From contig JAUPFP010000005.1 in NCBI GenBank assembly GCA_036925085.1, forward strand, positions 3,570,501-3,634,500: a stretch of 64,000 nt of DNA, in the 5' to 3' direction. This document shows, one piece after another, positions 2,211 to 58,845 of this stretch. The DNA is from Brachycybe producta (taxonomy: Eukaryota > Arthropoda > Diplopoda > Playtdesmida > Andrognathidae). The position numbers and the translations under genes were made by a program. Position 1 is the first letter of the stretch. Each line of letters starts with the position of its first letter. Below the pieces are notes generated by a model that saw only the letters and a list, made by a program, of their open reading frames with translations, did not search any database and was not told the DNA's origin.

Positions 2211-3118
2211 CTAAATACCTTGATATTCATGTAGCCTAGAATTAACTGACGACAACAGAGCCCTCTGTCCACCATAAACATCTGCCGAACTATACCCAGT
2301 TCCTTGAGGGACAACAGGTCCATAGTTTCCCATGGTTGAGAACTTATGATTTGGTGGTGTCTGTGGAGGAGTGTCTGTCTGAAGTTCTGGATTAAAAGCC
2401 GTGTTTGGACACGGTCCAGACGATCGCCCACTGACACTCATATCACAGCCTCCAGGTGCCATTATCCCGTTTACATGAGATGTTGGCATGCCGTTTGGTA
2501 AAAGTCCTGTTTTGTCTGACGACATTCCACTGCCACCATTATTATGATAGTGGTGTGGATTTCTATATGAATTCATAGATGGTGGTGTCACCTGAAAAGG
2601 AGGCACTGGTGGTAACCCCATAACAGTTCGTTGAACTGTGTGCATCGAAGCCCAGTCGCCATTTGCAGTATGCCCGATTCCGCCACTTGCTCCATATCCG
2701 GAGGCATTTGTCGTAGCTGACATGCAGTTAACCCTTTGTGGACATGCCAGACTAATTGTTGGTGGCGTTTTACAAGTGGCTGTGTCGGCCAAAGACCAGA
2801 TTTTGGGTTTTGCACTTTGAGAATGAGACGGGTTTTCACTTGTTGCCATCATTGGCATATCTTTTAGTTTGTCGGGATGGTGAATTCCTTGAGGCAGATA
2901 CCGAGTATGTTGTTGTCCGTGGATGGAATGACCAAGGTTTGATGAACCAGACGAAGAGGAAGAAGATGGCGATGCTGCTGGAGACGTTGATGCAGAAGAA
3001 CTGCATGGTAAACGATGAGGAGGACCATGTAGTCCAAGAACTGGAGCAGAAGAGTTGCATCCTCCTGCTAGCCGGTCATGACCAAAATGCTTTAATTCGT
3101 TTGGTTTGTCACAATAGC
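2211..3118 (-). CDS. Irx: Irx coding exon 5: Ser-rich region, IRO box, C-terminus
   Basis: The exon opens after a TTTCTTTTTAG acceptor and completes the split Gly codon left by exon 4. It encodes about residues 251-552: a Ser/Ala/Pro-rich stretch (about 289-310), His/Gln-rich sequence, then the Iroquois-specific IRO box KPKIWSLADTA (about 354-364). A low-complexity Pro/Ser/Asn/Gly-rich C-terminus follows, ending with EYQGI and TAG at 2213-2211. The IRO box together with the TALE homeodomain upstream identifies the Iroquois class, which are nuclear DNA-binding transcription factors in patterning. One uncertainty: an AAG/GTATTT donor-like site overlaps the last codons (exon end 2219), so a further small 3' exon outside the window cannot be excluded. 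Confidence 0.93.
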
Positions 3119-3379
3119 CTAAAAAGAAATACAGAATAAGATCTTGTTATTGCTATGAAATATAGAGAATTTTATTTTGCACTCAAGATTACTGATTGGA
3201 TTATTTAAATGAGCTATTTCTGATTATTCTTGCAAAAAAAAATGCTCTTTCTGCCTTTGCTAAGCCCCCTTTTTATGCTTACATGCAAATACGAATGTAA
3301 CTTACATATGAAAAACTTTCATTTAGATATATAATCCAACCGGAAATCTTGAGATGACATGGGTTTGTGCGGTTTATGC

Positions 3380-3820
3380 ATCTTCTTTCATACGGTTCAT
3401 ATATTAAGGGAACGATGGAAGGTTCTTCTAAACCAACTTTAAGTAAACTGTGCTGGGCATCGCATATATTTGGGTAGGAGTCCAGGCTATGAAACAATTA
3501 GCGAGATTTTTTCGCAACACATCACTATGATATTATTGGTATTAAGTATGATATTACTGGTCTATGTTGTTCTTAGGGTTGTTTGACAATGTAACTAACT
3601 TGCAGGAGGATTTTGTGCATGAAAATCAAATTGTACTTATGGGCCTCCTAATTTTCCTACCAATGCCTTATTTGTTCTGCACCAAAACACATTGCAATTG
3701 TTGTTGCCTTACATGTTGGGTTCACATCTTTGGATTTTGACAGTGCATTTCGATGCTTTCTTGGCTGCTTGCAGAGTTACAGTATTTTCAAGTTAACATA
3801 CAAAGTACTGTAGTAGGCCG
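3380..3820. repeat. Diverged dispersed repeat (partner near 30560-31000)
   Basis: Blocks such as TGAAAATCAA, GGGCCTC and TTTTGACA...TGCATTT occur in the same order and orientation here and at about 30700-31000. Overall similarity is moderate, so this is an old repeat of unknown class. Confidence 0.5.
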
Positions 3821-4105
3821 AATGTAGATTTAAACTTAAAACGTTTATCAACTGCATGGAGACATTTGGATGTATGCATCATACATGTATTTGGCAACTC
3901 CTAAGAACTTTCTAGGCCTGTCACAATAGAAACCTACACAAAGCCCATGAACCCCATGGATTTTTGGGTCTGGTAGGCTTTGTAGACGTCATCAAAAAGT
4001 AAACTTGTGTTTTTAAATTTAAAGGGTAATTTTGGTTAAAATTCTTGCTCTTTTAAAGATTATTTTTATCGCTCTTTTTTCAAGTTCAAAGTTTTAACTT
4101 GAGTT

Positions 4106-4310
4106 TCATAGGTACTGGAATTGGCATGGAAGGGATGAACCTGATGATGGTCTTGTGAACCTCATAGGTCTCTGGGCTTCATAAGCTTTGTGGGTTTTGT
4201 AGGTCCCATAGGCTTGGTGAGCTTTGTGGGCCTTTTGGGATTTGTGGGCTCGGCACAGTTTAAAGTCTCGTGGGCTTGGCTTCAAATTTGTACACATGTA
4301 GGTCTCTATG
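4106..4310. repeat. Degenerate short tandem repeat (GGGCTTTGTGGG-like)
   Basis: Imperfect 9-12 bp units built around GGGCTT, CATAGG and TTTGTGGG recur for about 200 bp. On the minus strand they read as an open stretch rich in Lys-Ala-His, which I take as a by-product of the repeat. Confidence 0.45.
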
Positions 4311-4464
4311 TCATAGTATACTAGTACACTTTTCTGGACAACACTAGATTTTAAAGGAGGTCTGTATACAGATTTTGCCATGTCAAAATTGACAAATAGC
4401 CTTGAGTCTCAAGTGAATAAAACCTTCTTATGCGTAGAATATATTTTATAAAAAATATATATAT

Positions 4465-4586
4465 ACTAGTGGGGTAACCCGTCATAAATGACGGGAGCAT
4501 CTAGTTTCTTTTTGTGTGACTGTCCGGTTGTCATGAAGCAATTCGCCTTGACCACTTGTGTTTTTTATAAGCACCTTAATATTGTT
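4465..4586. repeat. Dispersed repeat starting ACTAGTGGGG
   Basis: The block ACTAGTGGGGTAACCCGTCA followed by TAAATGACG and a CTAGTTTC boundary recurs at 15671-15735, where the GTCATAAATGACG part is duplicated. That core is a short palindrome. The element class is unknown. Confidence 0.65.
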
Positions 4587-4831
4587 ACAGGTATGTGAAG
4601 ACAGGGAGATACAGTCGTGTGCCCCGCCCCTTTATGACTGTCAGACCAAATATTAACCAATTGGAAATTGAAAAGAACGGGGCATGTGACGTCAGACCAA
4701 ATAACAACCAATTCAAAATTGAAAAGAACGGGGCATGTGACATCAGACGACAGAACAAAATAATTAAAAGTTGCTGGCCCTCATAAAAAGGCGGGGAAAA
4801 CGACTGTATTTTACTGTCTTTACTTGCCTGT
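4587..4831. mobile_element. ACAGGCA-type MITE, copy 1
   Basis: An inverted-repeat element of 245 bp. The ends (ACAGGTA left, TGCCTGT right) begin arms that stay complementary through an ACAGTCG-type segment into CCCCGCC/GGCGGGG blocks. The core carries the family motifs GGGGCATGTGACRTCAGAC and ACCAAATATTAACCAATT-like blocks, here partly duplicated. No clean target duplication is visible at this copy. Confidence 0.75.
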
Positions 4832-4839
4832 CCTTACTA

Positions 4840-4925
4840 TTGTTTGGATTCTTGGATCGGGAGAGTGCAACATAAAGTTGACCATGAGAAAAAAGCAGTT
4901 CATTTAAATTTCAATCTGATTAAGT
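4840..4925. repeat. Dispersed repeat (direct copy at 5946-6040)
   Basis: The sequence GGATTCTTGGAT...GTGCAACATA...GTTGACC recurs at 5946-6040 in the same orientation, so the two copies flank the palindromic minisatellite between them. Confidence 0.75.
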
Positions 4926-4939
4926 TTTTGTCCTAAAAC

Positions 4940-5690
4940 AATTTACCCTAAAGAAACATTTGCCCTAATGGGAGATATTGCCCTAAAGGGAGATATTGCC
5001 CTAAAGGGAGATATTGCCCTAAAGGGAGATATTGCCCTAAAGGGACATTTGCCCTAAAGGGACATTTGCCCTAAAGGGACATTTGCCCTAAAGGGACATT
5101 TGCCCTAAAGGGACATTTGCCCTAAAGGGACATTTGCCCTAAAAAGACATTTGCCCTAAAGGGACATTTGCCCTAAAAAGACATTTGCCCTAAAAAGACA
5201 TTTGCCCTAAAAAGACATTTGCCCTAAAAAGACATTTGCCCTAAAAAGACATTTGCCCTAAAAAGACATTTGCCCTAAAAAGACATTTGCCCTAAAAAGA
5301 CATTTGCCCTAAAAAGACATTTGCCCTAAAAAGACATTTGCCCTAAAGGGACATTTGCCCTAAAGGGACATTTGCCCTAAAGGGACATTTGCCCTAAAGG
5401 GACATTTGCCCTAAAGGGACATTTGCCCTAAAAAACATTTGCCCTAAGGAGATGTTCCCCTAATGAGTAGTCTAAATATACAGTAATTGGTTTTAGGGCA
5501 TATGTTCTTTGAGGGCAAATAGTTTTAGGGCAAATGTTTTTAAGGGCAAGTGGTTGTAGGGCAAGTTGTTTTAGAGCAAATGTTCTATTAGGGTAAATAG
5601 TTTTAGGGTAAATGGTTTTAGGGCAAGTGTTCCTTGAGGGTAAATGGTTTTAAGGAAAATGTTCCATTAGGGTTAATTGTTTTTATGGCA
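4940..5690. repeat. Palindromic minisatellite (17-bp units, inverted arms)
   Basis: From about 4940 to 5460 a 17-bp unit (GCCCTAAAGGGACATTT, with TAAAAAGAC and 18-bp GGGAGATAT variants) repeats nearly 30 times. From about 5490 to 5690 the same motif runs in reverse complement (TTTAGGGCAAATG, more diverged). The whole structure is two inverted tandem arrays. The same family is at 28525-28830. Confidence 0.9.
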
Positions 5691-5945
5691 CAATTGCCTG
5701 TGATAAACTGTAGTTTAATTTTGCTACTATTATCCCCTCCCCTTTTTATATTTGAAATAGAAAATGTGTTTTTCATTTTCTCTGGTGTGCGCATGCGCGT
5801 CGTTTTTTTTTTTTTTTTTTTACTAATTTCATTTCAATTTCAGTCACCCCCTCCCACTTTTCCTCCCTCCACGTTTCTCTCTCGCCCCCCCCCCCCCTTC
5901 TACACTTTCCATCCAACCTTTCCCCCTCTCCAATTTAATATCATG

Positions 5946-6114
5946 GGGTTCTTGGATGGGAAGCGTGCAACATATAGTTGACCTTGAGAAAAAAAAAAAA
6001 AGCTGTTCATTTCTTCATTTATTTAAATTTATATAAATTCCGATGTGCTTCAATGGTTGTACAGCGTTATTTCAGACAGAAAGACAGACAGACAGACAGA
6101 TACACAGACCTGGG

Positions 6115-6177
<63 letters not shown>

Positions 6178-6190
6178 GTATATATTTATT
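5946..6190. repeat. Dispersed repeat ending in (AGAC)n and (TA)n
   Basis: The second copy of the 4840 repeat continues into TTGTACAGCGTTA, an AGAC microsatellite and a TA run of about 50 bp (6117-6170). A related series, TTGTACAGCGTTACACATA then a GAAAG/CAGAC tract then TATATATA, occurs at 15840-15900. The TA run therefore looks like the tail of the element rather than an independent microsatellite. Confidence 0.65.
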
Positions 6191-6408
6191 ACAAATTACT
6201 TCAACCAAAACTAATGTATCCTTTAGGTTGAAGATAACATTACAGTTGTCATAATTTATATGAGGACTACATACATGTCCAGACATTTTGACAACAATGG
6301 TAATAAGTGATGAAGAGAGAGAGAGGAAAACAATTTAATTCCGAAATTCACTTTGAGGATAAATCTCATCTTTAGCTTTAAAACAAACAAAAACAAAACG
6401 AGGATATA

Positions 6409-6792
6409 AGGGTAGCTTTATGCTCCAAACTTTGCTAAGATATGCAAGCTTTGAAGCTACTAAAAGTTAGCTCCCCAAAGCTTAGCTTCTTCACACAAAC
6501 ATGTGGTCTTGCAAAGTTTACCCTATTTTATAACCTTTATACCCTATAGAACAGATACATAAAACAATAGAACCCTTCCACTTCTGGAAGCAAAAAAGGT
6601 GTAACTTGTTCACCCCATTTGCGTATCCATTTTCTGATTGGTGCTTTGAATTGCTAAGCTTTAAAAAGTTGAACAATTTCAAAGCTAGCTTCATCGCTCT
6701 GTGAAAAAAAAAAAACCTGAAGCTCTGACGTCATTTTTTCAGAGCTTCGCAGGCTGCTTTGAAGCTTAGCAAGAGAGTATAAACCAACCCTA
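6409..6792. mobile_element. Inverted-repeat MITE (AAGCTT-rich), copy 1
   Basis: The left end GTAGCTTTATGCTCCAAACT with TTGCTAAG pairs with the right end CTTAGCAAGAGAGTATAAAC. The element is dense in AAGCTT-containing subrepeats. A related inverted copy is at 55463-55792, with a fragment at 54945-55022. No coding capacity. Confidence 0.7.
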
Positions 6793-7359
6793 ACTACGAT
6801 TTTATTTAAATCCAGAAAGAGAAATTTCTAAAACTAAAGGTTAAATTTTTTTTTTAAAAAAAATTCAAATAATCATTCTGATTGACATTATTAAAGCCAA
6901 AGTTTATTTTCACTTTCTTTTAAACTGAAATTAATCAACTTGTTTATAATGAGTGGGGGTGGCTGTCACTTTTATTGGTTTGTAAATATAATAAAAATTG
7001 TGAATTAGGTTCATAGGGGGCAAAAGTTACTTAAATAATATGGGGATAAGAAGAGAAAATGTTTTCAAACTAGAAACTTAAGTATCATTTTTTTTCTGCT
7101 TTTGCTTAGTTAGAAGAGAGTAGGTAGACCTTACTACTACATAGCTTTTTTGTTGTTGCAGTTTTCTTGTTCACACCCTCATTTCTCAAGAGACCTTTGA
7201 AATAAAAAGTTTACACAAGACTAATAAATATAAGTTACATTATGGCGTTTGGAAAACAAAAATTCAAAATGACAGTTTCTTTAAAACACTTAACTTTTGT
7301 AGAGACTGCCATTTTTTTTTCTCCACTATATATAGACATTGAAGGTGCTAAACGAGCTC

Positions 7360-8000
7360 TTGTGTTAAGCAGCTATTAAACTAGCAACGTTTGATGCAAT
7401 AAAACGTGCAATGTGACATGCAACTTCAATGTTTATTGTGTGCAAATATGACATGCAACTTGATAAAACTTTATTTTTAACTAGTGTGAGACTCACAGGT
7501 ACAACTTCTGACAGACTTTTCGTGTAATTTTCTGACAAACAACCAATCAGGCCGTTTGCCGGAAATGGCATATGTGACATTGAACGAATTCTCGGTTTCA
7601 TGACTTCCGGTTTATGAACTTCCCGTGAGTTGATCCACAATATGGACCCAGACCAAAGGGACAGACATTGAAGAAAATCATGTATACGATTTTCACGAAG
7701 ATTCACAGCAGAGATCGTGTGGATGGAAAGTCATTTTACTTTTTAGCTGCATTTTTACTGGATATCCAGAATAGAATTAAAATTTTAAAATTCAGTAAAA
7801 CGCGAATTGAAAGTAAAATGGCTTCCGATACTGTACGAGATTCACCCGAATGTCGGTCCCCTTGACATAAACGAAGTTTTGAAAACTTGACTGGGAACTA
7901 CTGTAGGTTGTATAGTGTGATATAGAAGTTTATTACAAAGTTCTAGTTGCAAGTCACATCGCGAGTTGCATCAAAAGTTGCTAGTGTAATAGGGGCTTTA
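7360..8000. mobile_element. TTACACTAGCAAC-end MITE, copy 1
   Basis: The right end reads GTTGCTAGTGTAATAGGGGC and the left end AGCTATTAAACTAGCAAC, an inverted pair. Internal blocks ATGACATGCAACT and ACTAGTGTGAGACTCA recur in the copies at 40192-40672 and 62767-63216. Frames within it are not conserved between copies. Confidence 0.8.
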
Positions 8001-8209
8001 AAGAAATAAGGCAGAAATGATGAAAGAAATTTAGAAAATCGTCTGCTTTTTTTAAAGGTAAATGAATGGCAACTACCATATCAAGCAGCTAGGGCCAGCA
8101 TCATATATCCTTCTGATCGAATAATTTAATTGTTTGGATTTTGACAAGCCAGGATGGATAGACCAGAATTTGTCGTGTGTACCTAGCCTATACCAGTTTA
8201 AACAATTCT

Positions 8210-8267
8210 AATTCGGAAGTGCATTTTGAAAATGTAGTATGACATTTTCAAAATGCACTTCCGAATT
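8210..8267. repeat. Near-perfect hairpin, 26-bp arms
   Basis: The arms at 8210-8235 and 8242-8267 are exact reverse complements around a 6-base loop. The 11-mer AATGTAGTATG occurs at the loop and again directly after the right arm, which is the footprint expected of a local template switch. Confidence 0.9.
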
Positions 8268-8329
8268 AATGTAGTATGCTCTCGTTAAGTTCGTGCAGCG
8301 AATGCGAATTGTCACTGAGACGAGGCATG

Positions 8330-8480
8330 GATACCATTGTCAAATTGAGCTCGTCCTAAAACAGAACTAGATGCTGGAAGAGCATTCCATAGTCTAAATA
8401 CATTTGGAAAGAAAGACCACAAAAATGCATCTAGTTCTAGATCCTATTTCTGTAATAACCTTTGGATGGCCATTTCTAAA
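8330..8480 (-). pseudogene. Relic of a non-LTR retrotransposon C-terminus
   Basis: On the minus strand this reads as SFFPNVFRLWNALP followed by SSSVLG, the conserved (R/D)(L/I)WN(S/A)LP block near the end of CR1/Jockey-like reverse transcriptase ORFs. A related relic at 59780-60019 has PNVVRLWNSLP. Only a short remnant survives. Confidence 0.75.
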
Positions 8481-8537
8481 TATACAGGGGGTTTCTAGGA
8501 AGAATTCCATTTAACAATGAAAAAAAAAAAATTATTC

Positions 8538-8609
8538 AGGTTCCACCGAGACTTGAACTCGGATCGCAGGATTCAGAGTCCTGAGTGCTAACCATTACAC
8601 CATGGAACC
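8538..8609 (-). tRNA. tRNA-Gln (CTG)
   Basis: This 72-nt gene begins GGTTCCATGGTGTAATGG and has anticodon loop ACTCTGAAT with anticodon CTG, followed by the T-arm GAGTTCAAGTC and acceptor GGAACC. All four stems pair, and it closely matches animal tRNA-Gln-CTG. A T-run terminator follows within 10 nt on the minus strand. It lies in Irx intron 4 on the same strand as Irx. Confidence 0.96.
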
Positions 8610-8619
8610 TCGTTGCTGT

Positions 8620-8765
8620 GAACAGTCTGTTCTGCCCAGCACTAACTTTTCGTTTGCCCAGCCCTTTTATGAGTATCATCAATTTTCAATTGGTTAGTTA
8701 CTTGGTCTGATGTCACATGCCCCGCCCTTTTCAGTTTTTAATTGGTTGATATTTGGTCCGACCGT
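8620..8765. mobile_element. Truncated ACAGGCA-type MITE
   Basis: It holds the left half and core of the family (GCCCAGCAC, GCCCTTTTATGAG, TTGGTCTGATGTCACATGCC, CCGCCCTTTT) but lacks the right arm. It starts only about 10 bp beyond the 5' end of tRNA-Gln. Confidence 0.7.
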
Positions 8766-9418
8766 TCTTCCCGTTAATCAAATTAGGAAACATTCGAACA
8801 ATGGACTAATTTGATTTAATAATTCTTTAAAAACTAGAGGCTGCGCCCCCAACCACCCTGCAACAAGCTTAATTTAACTAAACCTAACCTTCCGACTATG
8901 CCTGCCGTTGTTCCGACCGTTCTGCAGTGCCCATTGATCTCTATGAACATTTACTGGTACAAGTATGTAGTTTTTAAAAGTAAATATTAAATGAAAGTCG
9001 ATCTTTTTTCGAAATTAACTGAATAAATTAAGCGAGCAATTCGGAATCACTCGCTTAATTTATTCAATTATTTTTGAAAATACATAACTTTCATTTCATT
9101 TTTTGCGCCCCCAAACCTCCTGCGCCGCCTCCCCCTGCCCACAGTTGCGGGTCTTGCAGTTGCCCCTACGCCCCTGTGTACATGTACTTGTAAATTCAGT
9201 ATCTGTCATACACGTATCCTAGTGTGAAACCAACCTAAGAGAAATTGGGATAGCGTACCTGGTGGGGGGGGGGGGTGTTTTCAAAATGGAAATTGTGTAG
9301 TGATTGGCGAAATTGCCCTATTCAACATTTAACAGACATGTCTATAAAAAGCTAAAGTTAAGGTTCATCAAAAGGGAACGTGTTTGAACCAATTTAAGAA
9401 ATGTAATAAAACAGCAAT

Positions 9419-9490
9419 TAGCAGAGCGTGGTTTCGATCCACGGACCTCTGGGTTATGGGCCCAGCACGCTTCCACTGCGCCAGTCTGCT
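9419..9490 (-). tRNA. tRNA-iMet (CAT), array unit 1
   Basis: Anticodon loop CCCATAA, with the initiator GGG/CCC anticodon stem and T-loop ATCGAAA. It keeps the standard T-stem ending CCACG, unlike the inner units. The base at position 7 is C instead of G, mispairing the last acceptor pair. A TTTT terminator follows. Confidence 0.9.
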
Positions 9491-9613
9491 TCCATGTTCG
9501 TGGCGCAGTAATACTGAAAATTCATTGCAAAATGGAAGCTTCCTTTGTAAAAACTAACCACCTTTTTGATGACCTTGTTGTTTATTTATGGAAACATAAA
9601 AGTAAAATAAACT

Positions 9614-9685
9614 TAGCAGAGCATGGTTTCGATCCACTGACCTCTGGGTTATGGGCCCAGCACGCTTCCACTGCGCCACTCTGCT
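9614..9685 (-). tRNA. tRNA-iMet (CAT), array unit 2
   Basis: Acceptor, D and anticodon stems are intact, with A1:U72. T-stem position 49 is A (from CACTG), leaving an A-G mismatch at the base of the stem. A TTTT terminator lies about 8 nt downstream. Confidence 0.9.
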
Positions 9686-9808
9686 TACATGTACGTGGTG
9701 CGGTAATACTGAAAATTCATTGCAAAATGAAAGCTTCCTTTGTAAAAACTAACCACTTTTTTGATGACCTTGTTGTTTATTAATGGAAACATAAAAGTAA
9801 AATAAACT

Positions 9809-9880
9809 TAGCAGAGCATGGTTTCGATCCACGGACCTCTGGGTTATGGGCCCAGCACGCTTCCACTGCACCACTCTGCT
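9809..9880 (-). tRNA. tRNA-iMet (CAT), array unit 3
   Basis: Intact, with a T in the D-stem (GTGC) that still pairs as G-U, and a G-U in the T-stem (CGTGG/CCATG). Confidence 0.93.
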
Positions 9881-10003
9881 TCCATGTTCGTGGTGCAGTA
9901 ATACTGAAAATTCATTGCAAAATGGAAGCTTCCTTTGTAAAAACTAACCACTTTTTTGATGACCTTGTTGTTTATTTATGGAAACATAAAAGTAAAATAA
10001 ACT

Positions 10004-10075
10004 TAGCAGAGCATGGTTTCGATCCACGGACCTCTGGGTTATGGGCCCAGCACGCTTCCACTGCGCCACTCTGCT
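10004..10075 (-). tRNA. tRNA-iMet (CAT), array unit 4
   Basis: A consensus array copy. All stems pair; the only difference from the plus-strand copies is a G-U in the T-stem. Confidence 0.95.
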
Positions 10076-10198
10076 TCCATGTTCGTGGTGCAGTAATACT
10101 GAAAATTCATTGCAAAATGGAAGCTTCCTTTGTAAAAACTAACCACTTTTTTGATGACCTTGTTGTTTATTTATGGAAACATAAAAGTAAAATAAACT

Positions 10199-10270
10199 TA
10201 GCAGAGCATGGTTTCAATCCACAGACCTCTGGGTTATGGACCCAGCACGCTTCCACTGCACCACTCTGCT
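10199..10270 (-). tRNA. tRNA-iMet (CAT), array unit 5, variant
   Basis: Anticodon CAT is kept. Loop base 32 is T, the T-loop reads ATTGAAA, and a T-stem base is also changed (CACAG). It is the most diverged inner unit and may not be functional. Confidence 0.8.
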
Positions 10271-10393
10271 TCCATGTTCCTGGTGCAGTAATACTGAAAA
10301 TTCATTGCAAAATGGAAGCTTCCTTTGTAAAAACTAACCACTTTTTTGATGACCTTGTTGTTTATTTATGGAAACATAAAAGTAAAATAAACT

Positions 10394-10465
10394 TAGCAGA
10401 GCATGGTTTCGATCCACGGACCTCTGGGTTATGGGCCCAGCACGCTTCCACTGCGCCACTCTGCT
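10394..10465 (-). tRNA. tRNA-iMet (CAT), array unit 6
   Basis: A consensus array copy, identical to unit 4 within the gene. A poly-T terminator follows. Confidence 0.95.
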
Positions 10466-10588
10466 TCCATGTTTGTGGTGCAGTAATACTGAAAATTCAT
10501 TGCAAAATGGAAGCTTCCTTTGTAAAAACTAACCACCTTTTTGATGACCTTGTTGTTTATTTATGGAAACATAAAAGTAAAATAAACT

Positions 10589-10660
10589 TAGCAGAGCATG
10601 GTTTCGATCCACTGACCTCTGGGTTATGGGCCCAGCACGCTTCCACTGCGCCACTCTGCT
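10589..10660 (-). tRNA. tRNA-iMet (CAT), array unit 7
   Basis: Carries the A49 T-stem variant shared with units 2 and 10; otherwise intact. Confidence 0.9.
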
Positions 10661-10783
10661 TCCATGTTCGTGGTGCAGTAATACTGAAAATTCATTGCAA
10701 AATGGAAGCTTCCTTTGTAAAAACTAACCACTTTTTTGATGACCTTGTTGTTTATTTATGGAAACATAAAAGTAAAATAAACT

Positions 10784-10855
10784 TAGCAGAGCATGGTTTC
10801 GATCCACGGACCTCTGGGTTATGGGCCCAGCACGCTTCCACTGCGCCACTCTGCT
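10784..10855 (-). tRNA. tRNA-iMet (CAT), array unit 8
   Basis: A consensus array copy. The spacer on its right has GCTAAATGG in place of GCAAAATGG, which makes the only stop in the spurious plus-strand ORF. Confidence 0.95.
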
Positions 10856-10978
10856 TCCATGTTCGTGGTGCAGTAATACTGAAAATTCATTGCTAAATGG
10901 AAGCTTCCTTTGTAAAAACTAACCACTTTTTTGATGACCTTGTTGTTTATTTATGGAAACATAAAAGTAAAATAAACT

Positions 10979-11050
10979 TAGCAGAGCATGGTTTCAATCC
11001 ACGGACCTCTGGGTTATGGGCCCAGCACGCTTCCACTGCGCCACTCTGCT
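10979..11050 (-). tRNA. tRNA-iMet (CAT), array unit 9
   Basis: The T-loop variant ATTGAAA replaces the initiator-typical ATCGAAA. Stems are otherwise intact. Confidence 0.88.
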
Positions 11051-11173
11051 TCCATGTTTGTGGTGCAGTAATACTGAAAATTCATTGCAAAATGGAAGCT
11101 TCCTTTGTAAAAACTAACCACCTTTTTGATGACCTTGTTGTTTATTTATGGAAACATAAAAGTAAAATAAACT

Positions 11174-11245
11174 TAGCAGAGCATGGTTTCAATCCACTGA
11201 CCTCTGGGTTATGGGCCCAGCACGCTTCCACTGCACCACTCTGCT
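11174..11245 (-). tRNA. tRNA-iMet (CAT), array unit 10
   Basis: Combines three variants seen singly elsewhere: T-loop ATTGAAA, the A49 mismatch and the D-stem GTGC. This mosaic suggests exchange between units; function is doubtful. Confidence 0.82.
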
Positions 11246-11368
11246 TCCATGTTCGTGGTGCAGTAATACTGAAAATTCATTGCAAAATGGAAGCTTCCTT
11301 TGTAAAAACTAACCACTTTTTTGATGACCTTGTTGTTTATTTATGGAAACATAAAAGTAAAATAAACT

Positions 11369-11440
11369 TAGCAGAGCATGGTTTCGATCCACGGACCTCT
11401 GGGTTATGGGCCCAGCACGCTTCCACTGCGCCACTCTGCT
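11369..11440 (-). tRNA. tRNA-iMet (CAT), array unit 11
   Basis: A consensus array copy with all stems paired. Confidence 0.95.
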
Positions 11441-11563
11441 TCCATGTTCGTGGTGCAGTAATACTGAAAATTCATTGCAAAATGGAAGCTTCCTTTGTAA
11501 AAACTAACCACTTTTTTGATGACCTTGTTGTTTATTTATGGAAACATAAAAGTAAAATAAACT

Positions 11564-11635
11564 TAGCAGAGCATGGTTTCGATCCACGGACCTCTGGGTT
11601 ATGGGCCCAGCACGCTTCCACTGCACCACTCTGCT
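11564..11635 (-). tRNA. tRNA-iMet (CAT), array unit 12
   Basis: The D-stem GTGC variant, otherwise consensus. Confidence 0.93.
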
Positions 11636-11758
11636 TCCATGTTCGTGGTGCAGTAATACTGAAAATTCATTGCAAAATGGAAGCTTCCTTTGTAAAAACT
11701 AACCACTTTTTTGATGACCTTGTTGTTTATTTATGTAAACATAAAAGTAAAATAAACT

Positions 11759-11830
11759 TAGCAGAGCATGGTTTCGATCCACGGACCTCTGGGTTATGGG
11801 CCCAGCACGCTTCCACTGCGCCACTCTGCT
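11759..11830 (-). tRNA. tRNA-iMet (CAT), array unit 13
   Basis: A consensus gene sequence. The flanking spacer carries small changes (TTATGTAAAC; GGCACAATAAT). Confidence 0.94.
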
Positions 11831-11953
11831 TCCATGTTCGTGGCACAATAATACTGAAAATTCATTGCAAAATGGAAGCTTCCTTTGTAAAAACTAACCA
11901 CTTTTTTGATGACCTTGTTGTTTATTTATGGAAACATAAAAGTAAAATAAACT

Positions 11954-12023
11954 TAGCAGAGCATGGTTTCGATCCACGGACCTCTGGGTTATGGGCCCAG
12001 CACACTTCCACTGCACCAGTGCT
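11954..12023 (-). pseudogene. tRNA-iMet pseudogene, array unit 14 (truncated)
   Basis: The right end of the array. The T-arm and anticodon arm are intact, but the 5' acceptor side is AGCACTGG instead of AGCAGAGTGG, so the acceptor stem no longer pairs. The spacer after it is lost. Confidence 0.85.
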
Positions 12024-12249
12024 ACCATGTGCTCATTGCAAAAGTTCATAAAAGCCCTCCTACGTAGACTCTAATACCCGATTTATGACCGTTTTCTCCA
12101 GACAGCAAATGTTCAAATATCCGGTGTGGATCCTCCTTAGAGGTTTTTTTATCAACACTTCTTTCAAAATAGTCATTCTGTTTGGGAATTACTTCTTTTA
12201 CCAAATACTTTTCTCTTTGGAAAAAAATGATAAAATGTTGTGTATTAGT

Positions 12250-12321
12250 AGCAGAGTGGCGCAGTGGAAGCGTGCTGGGCCCATAACCCAGAGGTCCGTG
12301 GATCGAAACCACGCTCTGCTA
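12250..12321 (+). tRNA. tRNA-iMet (CAT), plus-strand copy 1
   Basis: AGCAGAGTGGCGCAGTGG to CCACGCTCTGCTA: A1:U72, GGG/CCC anticodon stem, A54 and A60 in the T-loop, all hallmarks of the eukaryotic initiator. All stems pair without wobble in the T-stem, making this the most canonical copy in the window. A run of six T follows about 13 nt downstream. Confidence 0.97.
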
Positions 12322-12438
12322 AGTTGTTTATACTTTTTTGTTTCCATAAATAAACAACAAGATAAAAAGTGGTTGACAATTCAAAGGAAGCTTCCATTTG
12401 GCATAGAATTTTCTGGATTACTGCACCCAAAATGTACG
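12322..12438 (+). repeat. Inverted, diverged copy of the tRNA array spacer
   Basis: Between the two plus-strand tRNAs, TTTCCATAAATAAACAACAA, AAAGTGGTT and GGAAGCTTCCATTT match the reverse complement of the array spacer at reduced identity. The plus-strand pair is thus an older inverted piece of the same repeat unit. Confidence 0.9.
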
Positions 12439-12510
12439 AACAGAGTGGCGCAGTGGAAGCGTGCTGGGCCCATAACCCAGAGGTCCGTGGATCGAAACCA
12501 CGCTCTGCTA
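12439..12510 (+). tRNA. tRNA-iMet (CAT), plus-strand copy 2
   Basis: Same body as copy 1, but the first bases are AACAGAG, so pair 2-71 is mismatched. The spacing from copy 1 is 189 bp, close to the 195-bp array unit. TTTT tracts follow further downstream. Confidence 0.88.
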
Positions 12511-13009
12511 GGTTAGCCTAGGTATAAAATGTGGTTATTTTGTAGCCATTTTTTTAATGGAATCCAGACTTGGTTAGCCATTTATAGATGTCATTTTATG
12601 ACAAGGCTTTAATAGGGTTTCAACCAAATATCAATCTTTTTGTTCCTGATCTATTCATCCATACTTAAAATTAACTGAAATTATGATTGTGCTGTAAAGG
12701 ACCTTTATGAACTTTTTGAAATTTTTTTATCTTCCCAATTTGGGTCAATGGTTCATTACGTGTGACACCAAAGTGGACTTATTCACTTTTAAAAAAAAAC
12801 ATGGAATGTTTGTTTATTTACTAAAAAAAAGTGACTTGCCACTAACTGCCACCTGAATTATCTGCCAGTGCAGAAGCTTCAGGTCGCAATAGTGTGTTAG
12901 AGGCTTTTATTGGCTTTTTTTAAATAAAACTACATTTGCTCATGATTTGAATCCAAGTCTTCCTAAACTACAAGCTAGAAGGTCAACTCTACTGTATGTT
13001 GGTTATTAT

Positions 13010-13921
13010 TAGGGTCAACGGTTTCATGTGCTAAAAATCAAAGAAATATGCATGCAAATATGCTGTCAAAAATCCTAAAATATGCCCACAAAATATGCAC
13101 TATTGGATATCATTTGCACAATAATTTTTTTTTGGATTGAAATACACAACAAAAAACATTCTCAATTTTTCAAATTTAAAATAATGCAGATTGTTATTTA
13201 GTAGAGCTTTATACACAGGCATTTAGAAATCGGGACGAACACAAGTTGGCTCCGCCCTTTTTATGACGACCGGGAACTTCTAATTGGTTTGTTGTGTGGT
13301 TCGATGTTGAAATGGGCGGAGACATCAGACGTCAGACTACATAACAACCAATTAGAAGTTGCATTTGTCATAAAAAAGGGCGGAGCCAACTTGTGTTCGT
13401 CCCGACTTCTAAATGCCTGTGCTTTATACTTCGAGAAAGTACGTTCTACATCACAAGATGTAACTGGTGTCGCTTAAAATGAGCAATATCAGAAATAGAC
13501 AAACTGATATCTTCTTTAAGATTTTCACTATTCAAAACTGCACAAATCTTCTGGAACTCTTTATAGCCTTTATTTTTCTCTAATACAGTGGTCAATTTCT
13601 TTCTTGCTTCTTTGGAAGTATTCCCAGTAGCACATTTTAAATTGTCTTGCAGTTCTTGAATGACTGAAAATTTGTTCAGTTTTTTGAACTAAAATAGAAA
13701 AATCCTAATTTTTCTAGAAAAAAAAGTGTTAAATATGCCCTTAACATATAAAATTCCCAAAATATGCATGCAAAATACAAATACCCTTAAATATGCAATT
13801 ATATGCAAAATAAAACTAGTGTTATTCGACTTCATATCACATGAATCGTGCTTAAATCTGACACAGCATGAAATATAAAGCAGCAAAAATAATATGCATT
13901 TTCATAAAACCGTTGACCCTA
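13010..13921. mobile_element. hAT-type element with 8-bp TSD (GTTATTAT)
   Basis: The terminal inverted repeats TAGGGTCAACGGTTT and AAACCGTTGACCCTA are flanked by GTTATTAT at 13002-13009 and 13922-13929. An 8-bp duplication is the hAT hallmark. Subterminal regions repeat ATATGCA motifs, a usual site of transposase binding. No intact transposase is seen; the interior (13480-13690) may be a remnant. An ACAGGCA MITE is nested inside. Confidence 0.9.
13215..13420. mobile_element. ACAGGCA-type MITE, nested, 9-bp TSD
   Basis: The arms ACAGGCATTTAGAA... through GGCTCCGCCC are nearly perfect reverse complements for about 50 bp. The flanks carry the 9-bp duplication GCTTTATAC (13206-13214 and 13421-13429). 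A 9-bp TSD suits Mutator-like (MULE) elements. The core includes TTCTAATTGGTTTGTT and a GACATCAGACGTCAGAC block. Confidence 0.9.
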
Positions 13922-14566
13922 GTTATTATGAAGTAGGTTATTTGGGAAGTTGGGCTTAGAGAAGCCATCCCCCCATCCATATTTTTTACACTCTTCGGCG
14001 ATTTCCCAATAAAATTCGGCGGAAGTCAGACTTAGCCGTATTTTTTTTTTCGGCTGAGCTAAAATTCGGCAGATATTTACTGATATGGGGCTTTCAAGTT
14101 CTGAGCAGTTACAAATAAAATGAATAAAAAAATTTAACAAAGAAACTAATTTCATTTATTAAGACACTGGACTAAATTCCAAATTTTCAAGTTAGAATAA
14201 TTAAAAAAATATCGTGAATAAAAAAAAATCCTGTTTAGTTTCTTAGGTCTCAACGAGGAACGATGGACATTGCATAAAAGTAAAGTTATCAGGAACATGC
14301 TCTCAACTGCATTTGACCCAGAGGACATTCCCAAATATAATTATGCAATTTTATTAAATATTAAACTTTTTTTTTGCTGATCGAAATTATTTTCGGCAGC
14401 TGAATAACGGCTAGCTAGCCATAAAATTATTCGGCCGGATTTGGGCTGCACGAAAAAAAAATCGTCTAAGAACGGATAACCGCTTCGGATGGGAGGAATG
14501 GCACAAGAAACGTTTTCTCGTCTTAAACCTCCCAATGAATAACTGTGGCAATATAAACACACAAAC

Positions 14567-14919
14567 CTAGATTGTTAGGTTTTAGACCAGTTCCATCTTC
14601 CTTATCAGAATCCAATCGATCTGAAGTTGTATCTTTATCTTCATCCACATCACTCAGTTTTCCATCATCATCGTCATCCTCATCTTCTTTTCCTTTTGTA
14701 TCCCACGTGATCTTGTTGTCCTTTTTTAAACGCCGCCTCGCGTTCGCAAACCAAGTTGACACCTGAGTCAATGTCATTTTGGTGATAATGGCCAACATGA
14801 TTTTTTCTCCTTTTGTCGGATAGGGATTCTTTTTGTGCTCGTTGAGCCAAGCTTTAAGTGTGGCCGTCGCTTCTCGAGTTGCATTTTTACGACGGGCACC
14901 ATTTAAATCATAACCATAC
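14567..14919 (-). CDS. Irx: Irx coding exon 4: TALE homeodomain
   Basis: After a TTTGTTTCAG acceptor the exon completes a Gly codon and encodes [16 protein letters not shown], then the homeodomain (about residues 141-203). The three-residue loop extension segment NPYPTKGEK and helix 3 with [11 protein letters not shown] (including the invariant Asn) mark a TALE-class Iroquois protein. The homeodomain binds DNA in the nucleus. An acidic region with EDEDDDDD and DVDEDKD follows (about 211-242). The donor is CTAG/GTTTGT, ending in phase 1. This is the most conserved part of the gene and anchors the exon model. Confidence 0.98.
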
Positions 14920-24000: not shown

Positions 24001-24029
24001 TGATATTATATTTAATAAAAAAAAGCTAC

Positions 24030-24272
24030 CAAAGAAGAATAAAAAGCCGAAGATTCCATTGAGACTGGTGGGTACGTTTGTTCGGAATATGGAGCATAGG
24101 GACTCGATGGAACCGAAGATCCCAATCGAGGATATACCAAGGAATGTGTGTCACACTGTTGGCATGAAAAAACAGTCTGTCCTGTTACGGGATCAGTCAC
24201 GACCGTACGGCCGGACTCACAGCATGGGCTTGGCGCCACTGGACTGTTTCCTGTCTGTCCACTAACCAACAA
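24030..24272 (-). CDS. Irx: Irx coding exon 2: conserved N-terminal region
   Basis: 243 nt, 81 codons, phase 0 at both ends, acceptor TTCTCTTAG, donor TTG/GTAGCT. It encodes LLVSGQTGNSP, then CCESGRTVVTDPVTGQTVFS, a YPRLG segment and MESSAFYSSL. The CCESGR...TDP.TGQTV block and the AFYS segment are typical of invertebrate Iroquois N-termini. It joins exon 1 (ending Ser-Gln) in frame. Confidence 0.92.
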
Positions 24273-28430: not shown

Positions 28431-29095
28431 GAATCTGAATCCGAATCCTAAAAGGTTCTCGAATCCTTTGAATCTCTCGAATCCTTCATATAAGAATCCT
28501 ACAGTATATTAATCATGGGTGTGGGACATTTGCCCTAAATGAACATTTGCCCTAAATGGACATTTGCCCTAAAGGGACATTTGCCCTAAAGGGACATTTG
28601 CCCTAAATGGACATTTGCCCTAAAGGGACATTTGCCCTAAATGGACATTTGCAATAAAACCACTTGCTCTAAAAGGACATTTGCCCTAATCACTTCTGTA
28701 AATTTACATCATTTGGCATTTTTGGCAGAACCTATTTTAACATACTCCACTGAAAGACACTAAACTGTATGAAAAAGAGAGAACAAAAAAGTGGTTTTAG
28801 GGCAAGTGTCTATAGGGCAAATGTCTATATCCCATTATTCATTAAGAAGATACAAATAAATGAAATAATAATAAATATTAAATTATTATTAATAAAAATG
28901 TGTGGCACTCAGGATCTCCACAAGGTGATATTGGTGATCCGGGTATACCAACGAAATGGCAACAATCGCCGTTTACAGTTTTGTTTAAGGTTAGGATTCG
29001 AAAGATTCGAAAGACTTTTTGTCGATTCAAGTTTTCGAATCTCGAATATTTTTTAAGATTCGAGGGAATTCGAGGATTCGAATGGCCCATCATTA
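28430..29095. repeat. Inverted GAATC/GATTCGAG repeat with nested minisatellite
   Basis: The left part repeats CTCGAATC (28430-28500) and the right part repeats GATTCGA (28990-29095), as inverted arms. A second repeat structure sits between them at 28525-28830. A similar GATTCGAG tract is at 35345-35400. Confidence 0.65.
28525..28830. repeat. Palindromic minisatellite, ATTTGCCCTAAA family, copy 2
   Basis: About nine 17-bp units (ACATTTGCCCTAAAKGG) at 28525-28690 are followed after about 100 bp by inverted units (TTTTAGGGCAAGTGTCTATA) at 28791-28830. This is the same family as 4940-5690. Confidence 0.88.
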
Positions 29096-57479: not shown

Positions 57480-58845
57480 TCGCTGATCGTAATAATTATA
57501 ATAATAATAATTTATTAAGGGTTTTACTGGATGTACATTACAACAACACTTATGTCTAACCCTGGTCAATATAAAAGACAAAATAAAATAATAAACACAA
57601 AAATACATGGAGATATACAAGGAGGTGAAAACAATCATTTAATTATCATTCATTTTTTAATTTCCCCTTTCAGCCTGTCCGCACAACCAACAAGCTAGGT
57701 CCAATGATTTAACGTTAATATAAAAGCCATCAGATGATGGTCTACTACATATTATGGGAGTGAATTCCAAATAGGAATAACCCTATTAAAAAAGCAGTTT
57801 TGTTTACAGTTAATACGAGCGGCAGGTGACATGATACGCTTCGAGTGGGACCTAGTGATTGTTGGAGAAAATTTTAGAAAGGACTCCCACTCAGTGGGAA
57901 AAAAGACATCCTTAGCCAATATTTTGTATAACAATACTAAGTCAGTATGAAGCCGTCTGAGTTCAAGAGTGTGCATTCCAAGGGAATGTAATCGTTGTTT
58001 ATACAACATATTAGACAAGCCCTTCAAACGTTTAGTAAACCTACGCTGAACTGCCTCTATTGCGTTAATATCTCGTATGAGATATGGGGACCACACTGAA
58101 GAGGCATAACTCAGGATTGTGATTACAAACGCCTTAAAGGCCATAACTAATACTGTAATTGGACTATTGGGCAATACTTTAAATAATATGCCTACCCATT
58201 ACATTACATTACAATGTGATGAGAAATTTAGCTTATCATTAAATAAGACACCCAGATCTCGGGCTTCAGGAACCAATTTAATGGCGCTGCCCATACAGGA
58301 TAGACTTGATGCCAGCCCCTTGGTTTTAAAGTCCAGCACCATACACTTGTCAATTGACAGAGACATGCCATTAGTTTCTACCCAGTCTGATATGTTAGAT
58401 AGGGTTCCTTGCAGTTTCACAGGACAACTGGGTACACATTAAACATAATCGGCATAAAGCAGAGTCTTGCAGAGATTGTTTTGTGTTATATCATTAATAA
58501 ATATACCAAATAGGATTGGTCCCAATACGCTCCCTTGGATTACCCCACTACCAACTGAGCTAACACGCGAGAGGGTTGATACCACTTGGACTGACTGGAA
58601 GCGGTTAGTCAGAAAAGCCTGTATCCATCCATAGGCAGGGTTTGCTATACTTTATCTAGCAAACTTAGCCATCAGAATACAATGATCAACCTTGTCAAGT
58701 GCAGCTGTAAAATCCAGATAAGCCACAGTTACAGACTTCTTTTTATCTATGCAGTCCACAGTTTCCAGTAGACAGTCAAGAAGTTGTATCGTTGAAGAAC
58801 GAGTGGGAAGGAAACCATATTGGTTTGAGGCAAGCAAGTTCATTG
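57480..58845 (-). pseudogene. Non-LTR retrotransposon (CR1/Jockey-like RT), broken
   Basis: On the minus strand the pieces read in order: NQYGFLPTRSSTIQLL and AYLDFTAALDKVDH (reverse transcriptase palm), GVIQGSVLGPILFGIFINDI, then YADYV at the catalytic box (YADD expected). A later MVLDFKTKGL/ARDLGVLFNDKL segment and a thumb/C-terminal region with RVIPIWNSLP follow. Frames are separated by stops or shifts (for example at 58650 and 58440), so it is inactive. A (TTA)n-rich tail near 57485-57530 is the likely 3' end. The 5' part ends where the element at 58852 begins. Confidence 0.9.

Follow-up and report, generated by a model that had tools for sequence, protein, structure and literature searches.

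In animals, a tandem repeat that includes tRNA-Met genes is known from Xenopus, where the unit is longer than the one described here and comprises several tRNA species; in Entamoeba, the array units are made up of combined tRNA genes and reach far greater numbers. Here, we describe a tandem array of initiator tRNA-Met (iMet) genes in the millipede Brachycybe producta, located in a predicted intron of an Irx homeobox gene within a 64,000-nucleotide stretch of DNA (hereafter the window; contig C5, positions 3570501–3634500) of a 295.3-Mb genome assembled in 442 contigs. The array resembles the Xenopus repeat as an animal tandem repeat that includes tRNA-Met genes and differs from the Entamoeba arrays in having a single tRNA in each unit and copies numbering in the tens.

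Long, head-to-tail tRNA arrays like that of the window are reported for Entamoeba in a survey of eukaryotic tRNA gene (tDNA) clusters (Bermudez-Santana et al. 2010, PMC2888827). The survey characterizes tDNA clusters by mostly parallel neighbors for the same amino acid lying less than 1000 nt apart, by fast turnover and by the presence of pseudogenes. The window array is like them in these traits, and the spacing of its copies places it among tDNA clusters, which the survey defines by successive tRNA genes or pseudogenes separated by less than 1000 nt. It falls outside the narrower class of homogeneous clusters, which require one amino acid across the maximal cluster, because a tRNA-Gln gene about 808 nt from the first unit makes the maximal cluster mixed; the 16 iMet copies by themselves form one unbroken run of a single type. 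Compared with the clusters described there, the present case has a regular unit length and homogenized spacers, and a single developmental gene cluster, including some of its introns, holds 36 of the 41 genomic iMet core matches. A second point of comparison comes from tRNA genes and TFIIIC sites for which insulator activity or association with borders is reported in yeast, fly and mammals (PMC4226948). The window copies likewise have A and B boxes of the TFIIIC type; unlike those insulators, some of their B boxes are lost, and they are known from sequence alone. The array is an instance of the tDNA cluster, a known kind of element, in a striking place. We regard it, at a probability of roughly 0.8, as one of several related tandem iMet arrays in the Irx cluster, carried passively by Irx.

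Architecture of the iMet Array and Its Host Gene

Tandem Repeats Finder identified a single array that repeats every 195 bp for 13.3 copies (97% matches, 0% indels) and whose two ends fall at or within a tRNA gene (Table 1). On the minus strand it comprises 14 tRNA-bearing units, arranged head to tail and starting at 9419 + 195 × i (i = 0–13), with 13 spacers of 123 bp. ARAGORN called tRNA-Met(CAT) in 12 of these units. With the Rfam tRNA model (cut-off 29 bits), 13 units scored 41.8–56.1 bits, the additional one being unit 9, and unit 13, called by neither program, is a fragment because its 5′ acceptor half has been replaced. Two plus-strand copies, 189 bp apart, follow at distances of 231 bp (from the last unit to the first copy; 57.7 bits) and 117 bp (to the second; 50.2 bits). 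The array copies have the CAT anticodon and an initiator-type sequence, including A1:U72, A54/A60, three G:C pairs in the anticodon stem (GGG:CCC) and C33, which we take to be initiator features.

The host gene encodes an Irx-type homeodomain and, in the exon downstream of the homeobox exon, the motif KPKIWSLADTATCKTPP, presumably the IRO box. The sequence between these exons is predicted to be the last coding intron of Irx, since the reading frame continues through the joint (NNLG followed by YCDK) to a stop codon. The predicted intron of 11,448 bp has the acceptor ...TTTTTAG and the donor GTTTGT, which is other than the commonest type, and the iMet stretch occupies 3,093 bp of it. As Irx lies on the minus strand, the minus-strand iMet copies are sense to it. 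The open frame of the upstream exon has no simple join to the homeobox exon, so that an extra small exon or an alternative splice site is likely.

An initial sequence-only reading of the window had proposed 14 iMet copies at exact 195-bp spacing and two inverted copies, all in the last Irx intron and, except for two, on the strand of Irx. The present analysis bears out this description for the predicted last coding intron, with the 14th copy being a fragment. Its characterization of the locus as a regulatory block was not supported: the intron holds dispersed repeats found across the genome. The tRNA-Gln gene in the same intron was absent from that reading.

Table 1. Coordinates of the iMet copies, the tRNA-Gln gene and the Irx exons and intron in the window.
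Feature	Position	Strand	Source
Tandem array (period 195 bp): 14 units, each with an iMet copy, and 13 spacers	9418..12018	-	Tandem Repeats Finder
iMet unit 0, G7C (7:66 mismatch); sequence 3′ of tRNA differs from array spacer	9419..9490	-	
iMet unit 1, C49A (49:65 mismatch)	9614..9685	-	ARAGORN, Rfam
iMet unit 2, C11T (wobble), apparently intact	9809..9880	-	ARAGORN, Rfam
iMet unit 3, array consensus, apparently intact	10004..10075	-	ARAGORN, Rfam
iMet unit 4, C11T C32T C49T C56T (altered B box)	10199..10270	-	ARAGORN, Rfam
iMet unit 5, array consensus	10394..10465	-	ARAGORN, Rfam
iMet unit 6, C49A	10589..10660	-	ARAGORN, Rfam
iMet unit 7, array consensus	10784..10855	-	ARAGORN, Rfam
iMet unit 8, C56T (altered B box)	10979..11050	-	ARAGORN, Rfam
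iMet unit 9, C11T C49A C56T	11174..11245	-	Rfam (41.8 bits), no ARAGORN call
iMet unit 10, array consensus	11369..11440	-	ARAGORN, Rfam
iMet unit 11, C11T (wobble), apparently intact	11564..11635	-	ARAGORN, Rfam
iMet unit 12, array consensus	11759..11830	-	ARAGORN, Rfam
iMet unit 13, pseudogene fragment, 5′ acceptor half replaced	11954..12018	-	
iMet copy, commonest full-length iMet sequence of the genome, antisense to Irx	12250..12321	+	Rfam
iMet copy, G2A (2:71 mismatch), antisense to Irx	12439..12510	+	Rfam
Single tRNA-Gln(CTG), intact-looking, same intron as iMet array	8537..8610	-	ARAGORN, Rfam
Last Irx coding exon, IRO-box-like motif and stop	2211..3118	-	Sequence, open frame
Last coding intron of Irx, predicted	3119..14566	-	Sequence, frame across joint
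Irx homeobox exon, KN homeodomain	14567..14919	-	Homeodomain profile match
Upstream Irx coding exon, open-frame limits only, splice sites approximate	24015..24272	-	

Concentration of iMet Genes in the Irx Cluster

A search of the genome with a 36-base iMet core, allowing up to two mismatches, gave 41 matches, 36 of which fall within 344 kb (C5:3239148–3582985); the other five lie on C2, C12, C41 and C65 and at C5:6067071. The reversed core pattern, a control for chance matches, gave none in the genome. A DNA search with a perfect iMet copy gave a similar picture, with 36 of the best 40 of 51 candidates located on C5 at 3.239–3.583 Mb. Thus, the contrast that the sequence-only reading had drawn with initiator tRNA genes as few scattered copies fails in this genome, where most matches share one stretch and tRNA-Lys and tRNA-Arg form comparable arrays.

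The stretch C5:3239137–3583010, whose right end is the iMet region of the window (9419–12510), holds three Irx-type homeobox exons. The KN-homeobox search placed them at 3245163–3245282, 3460563–3460682 and 3585230–3585349 (the window gene), all on the minus strand, and the first two clearly encode Irx-like homeodomains. The IRO exons of these two genes were not found in the fetched DNA, and a genome-wide search with the window IRO exon returned only itself and one insignificant match. Further KN homeobox matches with similar scores are present on C33 and C13.

Six iMet copies (3246776–3248029) occur in the interval from the homeobox exon of the first Irx-type gene to the exon upstream of it (3249171–3249386). 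Two others, 3239137 and the fragment 3241722, are located 3′ of this homeobox exon, and a further fifteen (3315054–3366303) are situated 5′ of the upstream exon at distances of 66–117 kb. For the middle gene, no iMet copy was detected in the 8.5 kb surrounding its homeobox exon, and there is no iMet core match between C5 positions 3366278 and 3579944. In the fetched DNA, blastn located 23 iMet copies or fragments in C5:3230001–3430000, 16 in the window and 4 elsewhere, a count that leaves out eight weak matches to Arg/Lys tRNA genes in the tRNA-Arg locus L034 and the C12 copy. Fourteen of these 43 copies are perfect over 72 bases (10 in C5:3230001–3430000, 1 in the window, 3 elsewhere). ARAGORN called 20 tRNA genes in C5:3230001–3430000, all of them Met(CAT) and on the plus strand. 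A literature search, with most subscription journals outside it, found no description of iMet arrays in an Irx cluster, so that their absence from the literature is unproven.

Arrays of Other tRNA Families

Tandem arrangement is not restricted to iMet. Twelve tRNA-Lys(TTT) genes lie in tandem on C3 at spacings of 153–173 bp, and C18 carries a run of tRNA-Arg(TCT) genes at 165–166 bp (locus L034). Seventeen of the 25 Lys matches fall within 67 kb of C3 and six within 12 kb of C8, while nine of the ten Arg matches fall within 1.8 kb. The array habit is therefore special to neither iMet nor Irx; as far as we looked, iMet alone resides in a developmental cluster, the gene surroundings of the Lys and Arg arrays lying outside this comparison. 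One unit of the Arg run was called Lys(TTT) by ARAGORN and is 95% like the Arg gene, which suggests an anticodon switch. The related iMet arrays have spacings of 191 bp and 194–197 bp. The suggestion that the 195-bp period approximates a nucleosome repeat was dropped, because the other iMet, Lys and Arg arrays have other periods.

Divergence and Age of the Arrays

A search with the array spacer gave 27 matches, all on C5 at 3239210–3582923; the 13 in the window are 94–100% identical and the others, partly short, 76–96%. We read the spacers of the cluster arrays as having one origin, and the arrays themselves as differing in age. For the main arrays, namely W (the window array), A3 (C5:3364704–3366041) and A2 (C5:3247181–3247769), the tRNA and spacer divergences are 2.86% and 18.51% (W–A3), 3.47% and 21.84% (W–A2), and 1.04% and 24.52% (A3–A2). 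The tRNA parts thus diverge far less than the spacers between arrays, which indicates that the iMet genes are being kept.

Within arrays, variable columns show the same contrast in A3 (8 units; tRNA 2/72, spacer 17/119; Fisher p = 0.011) and A2 (4 units; 1/72, 18/122; p = 0.002), and W shows none (12 units; 4/72, 11/123; p = 0.58). The window array, whose tRNA varies as much as its spacer, reads as young and apparently relaxed. We read these patterns as selection on iMet genes in the cluster as a whole, with the window array young and selection on its single copies probably weak. The tRNA change C49A and one spacer change are common to units 1, 6 and 9, and units 6 and 9 have a further change in common, which fits block duplication by unequal exchange.

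Several observations weigh against this interpretation. The variable-column test left out the edge units 9419 and 11954 (W), 3364512 and 3366232 (A3) and 3247964 (A2), and W varies so little that its comparison of 4/72 with 11/123 has low power and leaves neutrality unproven. The contrast between tRNA and spacer is weak for 3362045 against A3 (3.12% and 6.09%) and for 3246776 against W (2.78% and 4.61%, partial spacer), and gene conversion limited to the tRNA could mimic selection. Residence in one place is also not universal among tRNA families, as the 13 Gln matches are spread over five contigs with a largest group of six; the general tRNA search covered the best 63 of 21,570 candidates and hence gives no genome-wide fraction.

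Integrity of the Window Copies

In the standard numbering of tRNA positions, C56 is important for the B box. Relative to the array consensus, five units are unchanged and two more (units 2 and 11) differ by the C11T wobble alone, while the remaining seven (units 0, 1, 4, 6, 8, 9 and 13) are damaged. B-box C56T occurs in three of the 14 units, and T at position 64, which forms a G50:U64 wobble, is present in every unit except unit 0 and the fragment. With the fragment left out, a run of four T begins 7 or 8 bases past the tRNA in the 13 minus-strand units. Judged by sequence, eight of the 16 window copies look intact, and the other eight are impaired by a mismatched stem pair, loss of C56 from the B box or disruption of the acceptor arm. 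Pseudogenes do not make up nearly all the copies, the outcome that the sequence-only reading had named as fatal to its proposal, yet half of them are damaged.

Could the window array be a dead satellite, i.e., an untranscribed, decaying remnant marked by CpG mutation? Besides the damaged half of its copies and a tRNA as variable as the spacer, C>T changes at CpG sites account for three of the five tRNA changes in the 12 full units, and C64T, found array-wide, coincides with a CpG of the other arrays. The observed/expected CpG ratio is 0.52 in the array, 0.57 in the intron and 0.71 in the window, against 0.83–1.18 at five other tRNA loci. The low CpG and the C>T changes hint, in small numbers, at germline methylation and decay. 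We nevertheless consider a dead satellite unlikely, given five units changed only by the wobble at 64 and two more by a second wobble, the perfect copy at 12250 and the retained T runs, and given that the counts of CpG changes are tiny.

Alternative Explanations for the Location and Origin of the Array

The reported activities of tRNA genes and TFIIIC sites (PMC4226948) raise the possibility that TFIIIC on the iMet B boxes acts as an insulator or loop anchor partitioning Irx enhancers. The presence of iMet arrays at several points of the Irx cluster and the apparently intact promoter and structure of half of the window copies would suit such a candidate regulatory array. The loss of C56 in three units and a window tRNA no better conserved than its spacer run counter to the expectation under selection on TFIIIC sites. 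Moreover, the Lys and Arg genes form arrays elsewhere, needing no Irx-specific cause, and no iMet was found within the 8.5 kb surrounding the middle homeobox exon, which makes this explanation improbable. A broader functional tie, in which iMet arrays serve as TFIIIC anchors organizing the Irx domain or Irx chromatin sets iMet output, coupling the capacity to initiate translation to a patterning locus, has location as its one positive argument and appears more doubtful still.

Near-identical repeats are where assemblies fail, and the array or its copy number might accordingly be an assembler error. This is very improbable for an array that is embedded in a 9.65-Mb contig, adjoins 200 kb free of N, carries distinct variants in its units in a block pattern and has relatives with diverged 191–197-bp units elsewhere in the cluster; its exact copy number could still be wrong. 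Equally remote is an origin of the unit as a tRNA-derived short interspersed nuclear element (SINE) or as transposon-borne sequence: dispersed repeats do lie close to some iMet copies, but the units run head to tail, all 27 spacer matches fall in one cluster rather than at unlinked sites while the nearby repeats occur on many contigs, and the sequences flanking the three perfect single copies (C41, C2 and C5:6067060) do not resemble the array spacer. Segmental duplication together with Irx, considered for stretches near iMet that are 87–94% alike between the three Irx neighborhoods, was dropped because two of the stretches are dispersed repeats with many copies genome-wide (best 40 of 137 and best 40 of 3,676 candidates scored).

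Other Features of the Window and the Assembly

Dispersed repeats occupy window positions 13031–13932 and 4455–6174, and the searched parts of them occur on many contigs; the former is 94% identical to a copy beside the middle Irx-type gene. Within it, a repeat of about 210 bp (13209–13421) matches several places in both orientations, like a fold-back element. Tandem repeats of about 15–17 bp built around ATTTGCCCTAAA or its reverse complement TTTAGGGCAAAT are found at 4941–5447, 5488–5664 and 28524–28689, and recur near the first Irx-type gene. An open frame at 57752–58198 on the minus strand, which matched no Pfam family at the applied threshold, resembles the end of a reverse transcriptase of the long interspersed nuclear element (LINE) type.

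The mitochondrial contig C442 (15,359 bp, 18.8% G+C) carries cox1-cox2-atp6-cox3-nad3, with nad1 on the opposite strand (genes named from translations), an arrangement that disagrees with the centipede Strigamia (PMC4368715); Rfam gave no matches in it. Besides this contig, cox1-like copies occur at C1:12697416–12698753, nearly full length with one TAA, and at C17:4027703–4029047, and are probably nuclear mitochondrial DNA.

Origin and Significance of the Array

Under the preferred reading of a passively carried tandem iMet cluster, each intact copy would be a self-contained RNA polymerase III (Pol III) gene with internal A and B boxes and a T run near its 3′ end, and such arrays would serve the supply of initiator tRNA. 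The array may have grown as blocks of 195-bp units underwent recurrent unequal exchange. Because arrays would arise from neighboring copies, the pieces would have remained local, and the long, repeat-rich introns and flanks of Irx may tolerate them as passengers, a status that we infer for the window array. The latter would be a recently amplified, partly decaying member of the group, while much of the selection for intact iMet appears to act on the other arrays and on the single dispersed copies.

The point of interest that remains is the gathering of most of an animal's iMet genes in one developmental cluster. This cluster displays tRNA gene amplification at different ages, with conserved arrays and an apparently younger, relaxed one whose spacers point to a common origin. 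Should the residence of iMet in the Irx cluster prove old, the question whether a patterning locus is disturbed or shaped by Pol III arrays could be tested directly; should it prove young, it would illustrate the ease with which tRNA families enter gene-desert introns.

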